Under the pieces are notes generated by a model. That model was not told the DNA's origin and did not search any database. It saw only the letters and a program-made list of their open reading frames with translations. The translations under genes were made by a program, and so were the position numbers. Below are positions 8,047 to 15,459 of a stretch of DNA of 18,987 bases, piece after piece; the stretch's first letter is position 1, and every line of letters begins with the position of its first letter. This DNA is from Acidobacteriota bacterium (GTDB lineage: Bacteria > Acidobacteriota > Blastocatellia > Pyrinomonadales > Pyrinomonadaceae), in assembly GCA_020853255.1 (NCBI GenBank), contig JADYZI010000407.1:1-18987 (forward strand), read 5' to 3'.

Positions 8047-8074
8047 CTTGCGATGGCGGCCTTTTAGTTTGAAT

Positions 8075-10093
8075 ATGGTCCGAAAGGAACACGGTTGGTT
8101 TCACCGCTGGCTTTACAATGGCGTACCCGAGGTAGAAGGCCCGCACGAACCGGAAGGCCGCCATCACAGCCACCCCTGGTGGAAAGTGATGTGCCTCACC
8201 GGCGTCGATTACTTCTCAACCCTCGGCTATCAGCCGGGCATCGCCTTTCTTGCCGCCGGAATTCTCTCGCCAGTCGCGACGTTCGTACTCGTGCTTTTGA
8301 CCCTTTTCGGTGCACTCCCTATTTATCGGCGCGTAGCCCAGGAAAGCCCTCACGGCGAAGGTTCGATCGCTATGCTGGAGGCCTTGCTTTCCCGCTGGAA
8401 AGGCAAACTCTTTGTCCTCGTCCTCCTCGGGTTTGTAGCGACCGACTTTGTTATCACGATCACCCTTTCGGCTGCTGACGCCACCGCCCACGTACTTGAA
8501 AACCCTTTCATTCAGGATTCGATGCCGTTTCTCGATCATCCGGTTATCGTAACCCTCGTCCTTATATCTCTGCTTGGCGCCGTTTTTCTCAAGGGATTCA
8601 AGGAGGCGATAGGTATCGCCGTTTTCCTGGTCGGCGTTTATCTGGTGCTCAACGTAGTGGTCATCGGGGTTGGCCTGTACGAGGTTGTGACCCACCCGAT
8701 CCTATTTAACGATTGGCAGACAATGCTTTTCAGAACAAAAGCATCGTTTGGCGGGTTTGAGACAGTTGGGCTGATGGGCATAATCCTTGTCTCGCTGGTC
8801 AGTTTCCCAAAACTTGCACTTGGACTTTCGGGTTTCGAGACGGGTGTTGCGGTCATGCCGATCGTTGAAAGCCCAAACCGTATCGAAAAGACCCGAAAGC
8901 TTCTTGCCACGGCCGCTATCATCATGAGCTTTTTGCTGATCGGCAGCAGCCTTGCAACCAGCGTTCTGATCCCTGAAAAAGAATTCTGCCCGCAGATCGA
9001 TTGTGCCGATACCGAAAGGCTTCATGAACTGCCAGATTTCTGCGCCTGCGGAATGGAGAAGGGCAAGGCGAATGGCCGCGCGCTTGCCTATATCGCGCAC
9101 GATAAATTCGGCGAGTTATTTGGGTCAAGCGTTGGCAATATTTTTGGAACCATCTATGACGTCAGCACGATCCTGATACTCTGGTTTGCCGGTGCCTCGG
9201 CTATGGCCGGACTGTTGAACATCGTTCCGCGATATCTGCCGCGTTACGGCATGGCCCCGGATTGGGCCCGGGCGACGCGGCCGCTGGTACTCGTCTTTAC
9301 CGGAATATGCTTTGCAGTTACGATCGCCTTTTCCGCGGACGTCGATGCCCAGGGCGGGGCCTATGCAACGGGTGTGCTTTTCCTTATTTCGTCTGCAGCC
9401 GTCGCGGTCGCTCTCTCGGCGTTTCGCCAGGAAAACAAATGGCGTTGGGCCTACGCATTCATCGCGCTGGTTTTTATTTACACAACGCTGACGAACATTA
9501 TCGAACGGCCTGACGGCATCAAGATCGCATCGTTGTTCATCTTTGCGATAATTGCCTCATCGTTCGTGTCGAGGGCGATGCGAACGACCGAGCTGAGAAT
9601 TGACAAGATCGAACTTGATGATGCCGCGCAAGGATTCATCGATGATCTTTCGGCCGAGGGCGAGATCCGAATCGTGACCAACCGCCGCGAGGTCGGAAAC
9701 GTTAGCGAATACCGCTTTAAGGAACACGAAAAGCGGATCGACAATCATATTCCCTCGACCGATCCGATTCTTTTTTATGAAATTGAAACTGGTGACGCCT
9801 CGGAGTTTACAGGTAAATTGATGATTCGCGGGTACGATGTTGAGGGCTACCGAGTCCTGCGCACACAGGCGCCGGCCGTTCCGAATGCGATCGCGGCGTT
9901 CCTGTTATTTATTCGCGACCGGACCGGACGCGTGCCGCATGTGTATTTTGGCTGGAGCGAGGGAAATCCGATAATGTACCTTGCACGCTACCTGTTGTTT
10001 GGCGAAGGCGACACGGCCCCGGTCACGCGCGAGATCCTCAGGCAGGCCGAGCCTGACCCTGAACTGCGTCCAAATGTACACGTGGGCGGGTAA
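8075..10093 (+). CDS. APC-superfamily permease with soluble C-terminal domain (672 aa)
   Basis: About 12 hydrophobic helices fill residues 35-490, beginning [23 protein letters not shown], an unwound TM1 with small residues typical of amino acid/polyamine/cation (APC) transporters, followed by [20 protein letters not shown] after TM2. A cysteine-bearing loop ([22 protein letters not shown]) lies between TM7 and TM8. After the last helix comes a soluble region of about 170 residues ([23 protein letters not shown]...[24 protein letters not shown]), probably cytoplasmic and perhaps regulatory. Its general plan resembles KimA-type potassium and amino acid permeases, but no substrate residue decides. 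ATG 8075 fits the topology; TTG 8048 is the alternative. No strong Shine-Dalgarno. Transcription probably begins at the promoter near 7687. Confidence 0.82.
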
Positions 10094-13240: not shown

Positions 13241-14479
13241 TTAGTACCGCAACAATAAAGTTTGATAATTCTCAAAATTCCGCCGCATTTCGTCGATCGA
13301 ATCGCCGCCGAATTTTTCGCGGAAAGAATTCGCTAATACGATCGCGAGCATTGCTTCGCCGATGACGCCGGCGGCGGGGACGGCGGTTACGTCGGAGCGT
13401 TCAAAGGCGGCGGGGCTGTCTTCTTTTGTGTCGATATCGACGGAGTGGAGCGGTTTCTTCAACGTCGAGATCGGTTTGAGATAGCCGCGAACCCTAAGTT
13501 CCTCGCCGTTGGTTATGCCGCCTTCGAGGCCGCCGGCACGGTTTGTCTTGCGATAGAAGCCCTTGTCAGAACCCGCTGCGTTAGCGGCGGGCCAGTTCGA
13601 TGAAGCGTCAGACTGACCGCCCGCTGACGCAGGCGGTTCTGACCAGAAGATCTCGTCATGCACCTGCGAACCCGGCCGGCCGGCGTTGGCTACTCCTTCG
13701 CCGATCTCGACTGCTTTGACGGCGTGGATGGACATAATTGCCCGGGCGATTCGGCCGTCCAGCTTGTCTTCCCACGAAGTGTGTGAGCCGAGGCCGACGG
13801 GCAGGTTCTTTGCGACGACCTCAAAAATTCCGCCAAGCGTGTCTCCTTTTTCTTTTGCGTCGTCGATGTGCGCCATCATCGCGGCCTCGACCTCTTTATC
13901 GGCGCACATCAACGCGGCATCCTTCGGGATCGCGGATATCGCTTCCCATTCCGCTTCGATCGGAGTTTCGGGAACGGCTCCGAGTTTTGCGACGTGGCTC
14001 TTAATATCGACGCCGAACAAAGCGAGGAGCTGCCGGGCAACCGCACCGGCGGCGACACGGGCAGCCGTTTCACGGGCGGATGCGCGTTCGAGAATGTCGC
14101 GCAGGTCGCGAGTCTGATCCTTCTGGCCGCCCGCGAGATCAGCGTGGCCCGGTCGCGGGCGTTTTACGATCCGCGGATTCTTTGGCTGGGTCTCGATCGC
14201 TTCCGCCGACATAATTTCGGTCCAATGTACAAAATCGCGGTTCTCGATCATCAACCCGATCGGCGAACCGAGAGCTTTTCCGTGCCGGACGCCGGAAAGG
14301 ATCGTTACCGTGTCGGTCTCGATCTTCATTCGCCCGCCGCGTCCATAGCCCTGCTGCCGCCGCCAAAGCTCGTGATCAATGGCGGCCTTGTCAATAGGCA
14401 ATCCCGCCGGAACGCCTTCAATGATGGTTACAAGTGCAGGGCCGTGCGATTCGCCGGCGGTTGTAAATTTGAAGTTCAT
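13241..14479 (-). CDS. aroC: Chorismate synthase with an in-frame palindromic insertion (412 aa)
   Basis: It converts 5-enolpyruvylshikimate 3-phosphate to chorismate, the last step of the shikimate pathway, using reduced FMN. Signature motifs are [16 protein letters not shown] (1-16), [12 protein letters not shown] (45-56), [12 protein letters not shown] (109-120), [20 protein letters not shown] (127-146), HAVKAVEIG (252-260), [14 protein letters not shown] (313-326) and the C-terminal [15 protein letters not shown] (369-383). Between HDEIFWSE (274-281) and KGFYRKTN (306-313) lie about 25 residues rich in Ala, Ser, Gly and Asn that the family does not normally have. They coincide with a palindromic DNA element (13565-13643). 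Both flanks remain in frame and intact, so the enzyme is probably active with an extra surface loop. The ATG is only 11 bases from the CACAGAG repeat, with no Shine-Dalgarno. Confidence 0.95.
13565..13643. repeat. Palindromic (REP/MITE-like) element inside aroC
   Basis: Two similar units of about 30 bases stand in inverted orientation (about 13566-13595 and 13613-13642). The left unit starts TCAGAACCCGCTGCGTTAGC and the reverse complement of the right starts TCAGAACCGCCTGCGTCAGC. The outer ends are a perfect 9-bp inverted repeat (GTCAGAACC at 13565-13573, GGTTCTGAC at 13635-13643). Each unit also folds on itself (CCGCTGCGTTAGCGG, CCGCTGACGCAGGCGG). This is the architecture of paired REP sequences or a small non-autonomous palindromic element. 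No second copy exists in the window, and no clear target-site duplication was found. Confidence 0.75.
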
Positions 14480-14490
14480 ACGGTGCGTTT

Positions 14491-14582
14491 ACCACAGAGA
14501 CACAGAGACACAGAGACACAGAGTAATATCCTGGCGCCGCAGACCTAGGTTTCCAATCTCTATGTCTCTGTGCCTCTGTGGT
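14491..14582. repeat. CACAGAG inverted/tandem repeat between aroC and the EamA gene
   Basis: The left arm (14491-14523) is ACCACAGAG followed by three further ACACAGAG units, an 8-bp tandem. The right arm (about 14558-14582), reverse complemented, reads ACCACAGAGGCACAGAGACA and then TAGAGA, pairing with the left arm over about 25 bases with two mismatches. The inner 35 bases are unrelated. The element could act as a bidirectional terminator or RNA hairpin. It overlaps the 3' end of the EamA gene. Confidence 0.75.
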
Positions 14583-15459
14583 CAATTTTTCCCGATCGCC
14601 TTCTAAAGACGATCAATCCTATACTTGTCAATATTAACAGACCTCCCGCGATCGTTTGCGGCGGGAGCGTTTCGCCCAACACAAGGTTGCCTACCACGAC
14701 AGCGATCAGTGGCGTGACCAGTGAGATCATCATTGCCTTGGTCGATTCGATTCTACTCAAAAGCCAATAATAAAGCCAAAAAGCCGCTATTGTTCCAGCA
14801 ACCGCCAGGTATAGGACACAGGCGAGGGCACGCCAGTTCCAGTTGAACGAAAGCGGATTTCCCTCGGCTGTCAACGCGTAAATAATGATCAGCGGCAGCC
14901 CGCAGGCCATTTGTGTCCACAGAAGCGCTGCCGGATGGATCGAGCCGCCCTTTGCCTTTACAAGAATGGAGGATTGGGCGGCCGCATAGGCACCTGCGAC
15001 GATAGCCACGGAACCGGCGAACGCGGACCAATCCTCAAGCCTGAGCTGTTCAAGAAAGATCACGGCAACGCCGGCGACGCCTGTGCAGACAGCGATGATC
15101 TTAAGCCGCGTGATCCGCTCGGCCGGCAGAAATATCCATGCCAGCAACAGGCCAAAAACTGGGATCGAGGCCTGAAGAACGGCCGCAAGCCCGGACGAGA
15201 TGTATTGCTCGCTCCAGAAGACCGCACTATAGTTTATTGAGAATTGCAGAACGCCCGTCAAAGCGACAAGGCGCCATTCCGATATCGACCTTGGCAAGGG
15301 AAGCGTTCCTCGGATGACAAGCGGAGCAAGAAGAATGACGGCAAGCGAGAAGCGGGCTGCCGAAAAAGTGATCGGCGGCAGATCGGCCAGGCCAACTTTG
15401 ATGAAGATCCAGGTGGTGCCCCACAAAAGGCAAAGGATCAGCCAAACAAGGATCGTCAT
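14560..15459 (-). CDS. EamA/DMT-family transporter (299 aa)
   Basis: Ten hydrophobic helices arranged as two EamA repeats (about 3-135 and 145-288) mark a drug/metabolite transporter-superfamily inner-membrane exporter. The start MTILVWLILCLLWGTTWIFIKVGL carries the characteristic WGTTW motif in TM1; the second repeat shows AGTIAAFWLYYWLLSRIESTKAMMISLVTPLIAVVVGNLVLGE, which is typical of the family. Typical substrates are amino acids or other metabolites, not determinable here. The last codons (DHRGTET and stop) are encoded by the CACAGAG repeat, so the native C-terminus was probably replaced when the repeat arrived. No clear Shine-Dalgarno is seen before the ATG; 102 bases separate it from rsmD, upstream on the same strand. 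Confidence 0.92.
   Translation of the reverse strand: MTILVWLILCLLWGTTWIFIKVGLADLPPITFSAARFSLAVILLAPLVIRGTLPLPRSISEWRLVALTGVLQFSINYSAVFWSEQYISSGLAAVLQASIPVFGLLLAWIFLPAERITRLKIIAVCTGVAGVAVIFLEQLRLEDWSAFAGSVAIVAGAYAAAQSSILVKAKGGSIHPAALLWTQMACGLPLIIIYALTAEGNPLSFNWNWRALACVLYLAVAGTIAAFWLYYWLLSRIESTKAMMISLVTPLIAVVVGNLVLGETLPPQTIAGGLLILTSIGLIVFRRRSGKIDHRGTET

Follow-up and report, generated by a model that had tools for sequence, protein, structure and literature searches.

A REPIN-like element in a repeatedly recolonised loop of chorismate synthase in Pyrinomonadaceae (Acidobacteriota)

The aroC locus and its palindromic insert

The window, by which we mean the whole 18,987-nt stretch of DNA that was analysed, belongs to a member of the family Pyrinomonadaceae and carries on its minus strand aroC, an essential gene. 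Its product, a chorismate synthase, scored above the cut-off for both NCBIfam PRK05382.1 and TIGR00033. An inverted pair of REP repeats lies within this gene in the following arrangement.

13241..14479, minus strand: aroC, chorismate synthase, 412 aa, the host gene (Pfam PF01264, Chorismate_synt, E 4.4e-115)
13565..13643, no strand assigned: REPIN-like element, an inverted REP-unit pair of 79 bp (1 mod 3), in frame with aroC (from unit positions, fold z and shuffles)
13565..13592, plus strand: REP unit 1, GTCAGAACCCGCTGCGTTAGCGGCGGGC, stem CCCGC/GCGGG
13593..13615, no strand assigned: spacer separating both REP units (by subtraction)
13616..13643, minus strand: REP unit 2, GTCAGAACCGCCTGCGTCAGCGGGCGGT, stem CCGCC/GGCGG
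13568..13636, minus strand: codons of residues 282–304, the net insertion relative to solved chorismate synthases (alignment to PDB 1q1l/1qxo; coordinates from the reading frame)

The element ends in perfect 9-base termini (GTCAGAACC and GGTTCTGAC). The unit pattern GTCAGAACCNNCTGCG matched twice in the window, and none of 200 shuffles contained two matches (shuffle mean 0.00); the folding energy of the element corresponded to z scores of −6.6 as DNA and −6.8 as RNA, which 0 of 200 shuffles equalled. A sequence-only reading of this locus had described an in-frame inverted palindromic pair with perfect 9-base ends inside aroC, and this description stands except for the unit length, which is nearer 28 than 30 bases; from its term "REP-pair/MITE-like" we keep the REP pair and drop the generic MITE. 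The two units fold together into a longer hairpin, and 27 inverted doublets were found among the elements of related genomes. Stem pairing was conserved: full pairing was seen in 55 of the 93 distinct unit-like sequences, as against a shuffled mean of 25.5 and a maximum of 34. In known RAYT systems the REPs have a head of the GTAG or GTGG type, which was absent here as a rule: when units were chosen on bases 8–28 alone, regardless of head, 72 of 79 started with GTCAG, and we therefore call the element REPIN-like with a divergent head. Around 211 units the target-site consensus was weak, GTC being preceded by T in 57% and position −3 being C in 50%. Elsewhere in the window, a tandem and inverted repeat of CACAGAGA units occupies positions 14488–14585, directly upstream of aroC, where units of this type are also found in the related genome G002 (L002 4916–4987), and a 681-aa ORF at 8048–10093 had no Pfam match at E 0.001.

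Reading the sequence in the aroC frame, the element codes for residues S280–D305 of AroC. Alignment with PDB entries 1q1l and 1qxo placed residues 282–304 as an insertion between ..HDEIGWSE and GKGYFR.., in agreement with the extra in-frame loop that had been predicted. An AlphaFold model built from close relatives alone was poor (pLDDT 66.8, pTM 0.69) and was set aside; in the better model, for which distant AroC sequences were added to the alignment, residues 283–303 formed the sole stretch with a pLDDT below 50. The element-coded extra loop in the chorismate synthase of this soil bacterium is probably floppy. Purifying selection on aroC was strong on either side of the loop, with a dN/dS of about 0.05 between the window and its relative L001 (dN 0.033 and dS 0.625 for the part 5′ of the loop; dN 0.030 and dS 0.579 for the 3′ part). 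We infer that the enzyme still works with its REPIN-like insert, and the loop peptide would be expressed as part of it.

The window and most of the relatives are metagenome contigs, a point in favour of an assembly or binning artefact. Homologous inserts, however, occur in clusters from other sources (P0002 and P0003), the frame is intact and the gene is under purifying selection to either side of the loop, and among the 104 of 119 family genomes in which AroC was matched at E 1e-60, 102 had exactly one. An artefact, to which we give next to no probability, was ruled out by these homologous inserts, the intact frame and the single AroC per genome.

Copies in related genomes and their reading frame

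In copy counts the genome of the window is represented by its relatives, most of which are drafts. Among the matches listed, the window element matched 13 of 14 relative genomes in a first set, with at least 38 matches in G001, at least 55 in G002 and at least 26 in G003, numbers in which some elements are counted twice since a palindrome can match on both strands. The closest full-length match among those listed was in G001 (90% identity over 80 bases). All 22 genomes of a second set were matched as well. Exact unit patterns numbered 73 in G002, 37 in G119 and 36 in G051, all relatives of the source genome. The exact CCGCC plus CCACC pattern was present in 14 of 297 Acidobacteriota genomes, namely in 13 of the 19 drawn from the family searched for AroC and in 1 of the 278 others; as a control, the pattern read backwards gave no match in any of the 14 pattern-bearing genomes.

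The aroC gene of L001, used as a query, matched aroC in 16 of 16 genomes, and all listed matches outside aroC fell on bases 828–899 of its 1221, which are the insert. A control query from the gene body gave one aroC match in each of the 15 matching genomes, plus two weak matches of 19–24 bases. Strong folding (z < −3) was seen for 8 of 13 aroC inserts versus 2 of 78 control stretches, one of the latter lying within the window's own aroC. These data bear on whether an ordinary fast-evolving surface loop had drifted to a low-complexity, palindrome-like sequence without any mobile element. The position is indeed long and variable in many relatives; against drift stand the many loci that match the insert DNA and not the gene body, and the excess of strong folds among the inserts. 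Simple drift was ruled out by the insert copies at many loci in relatives, and we regard it as very improbable.

To see where the copies lie, we sampled 60 regions of five relatives, made up of the listed matches of G001, G002, G003 and G012, one match of G004, and the aroC loci of G001 and G002. Elements were located through BLAST searches that used the window element as query, so that "unit", here and in the second sample and transposase-locus counts below, includes the close CCACC-stem class. Gene status was judged not from annotation but from codon usage in open frames to either side of the element. Coding-like ORFs held 47 of the 115 elements (units and near variants) and the other 68 lay outside such ORFs. 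One frame, giving peptides of the SEPPASAGG/PPxxAGGSD type, was used by 46 of the 47 intragenic elements; the lone copy in another frame was in L268, a VWA protein. A second sample, comprising the 30 best-match loci of the 22-genome search, gave the same picture, with 18 of 38 elements intragenic and 18 of 18 in that frame. The suggestion that this is a protein-invading repeat family in Acidobacteriota is therefore supported, the same peptide recurring in many genes of the relatives.

Length was biased too. All nine pairs scored intragenic by script were 1 mod 3 in length. The script labelled a further 18 pairs as not intragenic; when the five of these with both arms flagged as intragenic in the 60-region sample were moved by hand, 14 of 14 intragenic pairs were 1 mod 3, versus 6 of the 12 with neither arm flagged (Fisher p 0.004), a comparison that omits L298 (one arm flagged, also 1 mod 3) while the equally one-armed L290 is among the nine, and in which two of the 12 extragenic pairs have one arm in common. 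The bias in frame and length fits selection. Binomial values for these counts took 2 of 5 frames as the null and assumed independent copies, which orthologues are not, and we give them no weight.

Of the 33 host ORFs, 30 were searched against Pfam; each of these matched a domain at E ≤ 0.001, the match of L277 being below its cut-off. By domain, the hosts included M14 and M1 peptidases, PurL, LeuRS, a class II tRNA synthetase, MetRS, TilS (in two genomes), UvrD, CarB, MetH, PntA, AcrB, glycine dehydrogenase, HsdM, pseudouridine synthase, a GltD-like protein and a xanthine-dehydrogenase-like protein. Alignments of LeuRS and PntA, each from nine genomes, placed the inserts in hypervariable stretches. 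A loop of the LeuRS editing domain held the insert in G001, G002 and G051 and other long inserts in G081 and G072, and was without one in four genomes; a second LeuRS loop held three units in G012 and one in G081. The PntA linker carried the insert in G002 and G083, and in G051 a peptide resembling the third REP class (VSEPGAIATG). Insertion sites also recurred across genomes in M14, M1 and pseudouridine synthase, as judged by matching flank peptides.

Several further loci were observed in passing. The M1 peptidase ORF of G002 (L293:3604-6837) contains six REP units in frame, and a REP in L180 (G068) and a heptamer repeat in L220 (G084) apparently share one site in similar proteins (..DKFA.D..). 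An ORF of G007 (L058/L069), which by eye we take to be Mfd, has an LRVESRES..LSTLNSRLLT peptide and REP-type units in its 3′ part.

Turnover of the AroC loop

In the two AroC clusters closest to the window's protein, P0002 and P0003 (95 and 94% identity), the insert is clearly homologous, whereas the next two (91% identical) have an unrelated repeat, F6, at the identical position. Farther relatives carry one of several repeat classes, including the window's with other spacers, or a loop of at most 14 residues. The segment is therefore not an old loop common to all close relatives, which would have refuted the sequence-only reading, and P0002 and P0003 share it. What had not been foreseen was the use of this site by several unrelated repeat families.

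To survey the loop we combined 88 AroC sequences, obtained from 90 genome loci read as DNA (30 plus 60), with 120 listed proteins, some of which the genome loci duplicate. Among these 208 AroC, 107 had a short loop (at most 14 residues), 24 the window's REP class, 6 and 7 two other REP classes, 10 F6, 10, 6, 13 and 4 four tandem-repeat classes, 2 were mixed, 13 other and 6 not extractable; these counts are approximate because the classes were defined by peptide patterns written by hand and a few entries stand in the wrong class, among them P0012 (REP-C-like, in "other"), P0067 (perhaps a chance "SPVS") and L091 (masked, counted as short). In the genome loci taken alone, the loop was short in 66 of 88, and that of P0114 consists of two classes in tandem. 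A FastTree phylogeny of 192 AroC, inferred from the sequences minus the loop, requires at least 65 changes of loop class, a count that is likewise approximate and includes the states "short" and "other"; the least possible number is 11, and none of 200 shuffles was as low (shuffled mean 86.2). When only well-supported branches were counted, each of the eight repeat classes still required 3 to 9 changes. The aroC loop is thus an insertion hotspot, with eight repeat classes and about 65 class changes.

The occupants differ in kind. Two F6 inserts folded weakly (z −0.7 and −2.9), showing that not every loop class is a strong palindrome. Heptamers of the GTCTCCNGTCTCC type, as in the aroC insert of G072, gave 46 pattern matches in that genome, many of them overlapping, and the heptamer pattern was present in 5 of 16 genomes. 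Heptamer repeats were also observed in coding-like ORFs (15 of 30 elements in L217–L246, with overlapping loci counted repeatedly). Conversely, G119 has a short aroC loop despite its 37 unit matches, indicating that a rich REP load alone does not bring an aroC insert.

Hairpins might instead be retained at the loop for a function in pausing, mRNA stability or protein regulation, and both the strength of the RNA hairpin and the repeated recolonisation of the site would suit such a role. The loop occupants, however, have no common sequence, the loop is short in 107 of 208 AroC, and the host genes are functionally diverse, and we consider retention for function quite unlikely. The repeated use of the loop would reflect tolerance or targeting. 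It is possible, although we are doubtful, that the aroC turn serves as a genuine landing site and not just a tolerant one: a hairpin resident there would attract unrelated repeats, or be swapped for them, by single-strand transposition or by template switching at a cruciform. Were this so, an essential protein would contain a slot whose sequence is rewritten again and again. LeuRS, PntA, the M14 and M1 peptidases and pseudouridine synthase seem to have comparable slots.

A candidate transposase and the relation to known repeats

Genes with a Y1_Tnp domain (PF01797) were found in 22 of 23 genomes, with scores of 37.5 bits for G083:C36 and 33.8 bits for G054:C75 against a cut-off of 23. One subfamily, retrieved with a query from L338, was present in 27 of 36 genomes. 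We call it RAYT-like because its transposase scored 21.1 bits with NCBIfam REP_Tyr_transpos, under the cut-off of 80, and it may be a divergent group; the NCBIfam IS200 model gave 31 bits, under its cut-off of 55. At 11 of 30 subfamily loci the gene had units matched by the window element on either side, no more than 400 bases away, and in all 11 their order was inverted. At least five of the 11 (L357, L358, L362, L364 and L366) have units of the window's CCGCC type, and others have the CCACC type. The remaining 19 lacked window-type units on both sides. By contrast, window-type units were found at 0 of 30 other Y1_Tnp loci within about 1.5 kb. Loci L337–L340 were left out of the controls because they had been fetched partly for units already seen nearby.

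An inverted 14-mer of any class was common to both gene sides at 21 of the 30 subfamily loci versus 2 of 300 random places; no such 14-mer was found at the other nine, although two of these, L360 and L361, are among the 11 flanked loci. Other unit classes accompany further members: GTCAGAACCGGGAG, the third AroC-loop REP class, flanks L367 and L370, and the form GGAACCACCTGCGG flanks L371. Since inverted units flank 11 of 30 loci of this subfamily and 0 of 30 other Y1 loci, the mover of the units is likely a RAYT, and the flanked Y1 subfamily would be what transposes them. The presence of the transposase follows unit copy number only loosely, and a search at E 1e-20 found no subfamily member in the REP-bearing G077 (at least 42 matches) or G059 (at least 43), drafts that may be incomplete. 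Two subfamily genes were also observed near aroC, one following it by about 90 bases in G051 (G051:C11:21056-21559) and the other by about 1.3 kb in G079 (G079:C52:53853-54359).

The elements resemble REPINs, REPs and their RAYTs in having short palindromic units, many of them in inverted pairs, dozens of copies per genome, covarying stems, and a Y1 (IS200/IS605-type) gene between two inverted copies, a layout that the accessible text of PMC2817692 describes for RAYT genes with inverted REPs on both sides. They differ in the GTCAG head and in a transposase that scores under the NCBIfam REP_Tyr cut-off. Their genic share is also higher: in the part of PMC3116915 consulted, 16-mers of P. fluorescens SBW25 occur 1,067 times and 14 overlap genes, whereas 47 of our 115 sampled copies lie in coding-like ORFs.

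The sequence-only reading had likened the insert to Rickettsia palindromic elements (RPEs). As far as the description in PMC10969869 was available, RPEs are alike in being palindromes in frame in unrelated genes, with a conserved peptide and several families, and unlike in their host, here Acidobacteriota, in their length of about 150 bp as against 79 bp, and in the RAYT-like gene that the units of our element flank. An RPE-like or MITE family without a RAYT, with the flanked transposases as bystanders, would account for the in-frame insertion in unrelated genes, which is an RPE hallmark in the accessible text of that source, and for the REP-rich genomes in which no subfamily member was found. 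Moreover, GTC follows a T in 57% of the 211 units, which recalls the CGTC repeats in their TGTC variant; the R. conorii elements are members of these CGTC repeats in the available portion of PMC3733652. The inverted units at 11 of 30 loci of a specific Y1 subfamily and none of 30 other Y1 loci, together with the other unit classes that flank further members, argue against bystanders, and we give this alternative a small chance. The likeness to RPEs accordingly holds for in-frame genic insertion and not for the machinery, which looks like REP/RAYT; RPEs are a functional analogue, given the REP-like character of the units and their link with a RAYT-like Y1 transposase.

Insertion of this kind is already known, intragenic REPs, REPINs and RPEs having been described (PMC3733652, PMC3116915 and PMC10969869, each as far as accessible). 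Di Nocera (2013), in the part of PMC3733652 available, reported REPs inside genes, most of them in Opitutus terrae and R. conorii, with GTAG/CGTC REP dimers that encode 20–30 residues within genes, including those for tRNA synthetases and UvrD, and a single case, Xanthomonas recB, of different REPs at about one site. Compared with what that portion covers, our case differs in the phylum and in a short AroC loop with eight repeat classes whose turnover was mapped on a tree, some of these classes being tandem-heptamer palindromes and not REPs. In the literature searched, which included few subscription papers, we came upon neither a report of such insertions in Acidobacteriota genes nor one in which many repeat classes had recolonised the loop of an essential protein. 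Relative to these sources, what is new is the phylum, the high genic share and the recolonised loop of an essential enzyme.

We consider it very likely that the REPIN-like element was, in all likelihood, copied by a RAYT-type Y1 transposase and survives in a tolerated frame, in a loop that has been recolonised. In single-stranded DNA the two inverted REP units would be able to pair with each other in a fold-back structure, and the single-strand transposase most likely copied the element into the turn between two chorismate synthase strands. One frame of the element is stop-free and would code for small neutral residues (SEPPASAGG...PPxxAGGSD); insertions in this frame, of length 1 mod 3 and in tolerant loops, would survive, and selection would purge the remainder. 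One and the same invasion would have struck many housekeeping genes of the Pyrinomonadaceae, and the aroC turn may be so tolerant, or so often targeted, that unrelated repeat families replaced one another there.

REPs are extragenic by name. Here many REP-like copies lie within core enzymes in a single tolerated frame, and one enzyme loop has been repeatedly recolonised. For annotation, alike loop peptides in unrelated Pyrinomonadaceae proteins are to be read as repeat-derived and not as shared domains. With many filled and empty orthologues and a candidate transposase, the family offers a natural experiment in how mobile DNA supplies new protein segments, and AroC a core enzyme in which tolerance to insertion can be measured.
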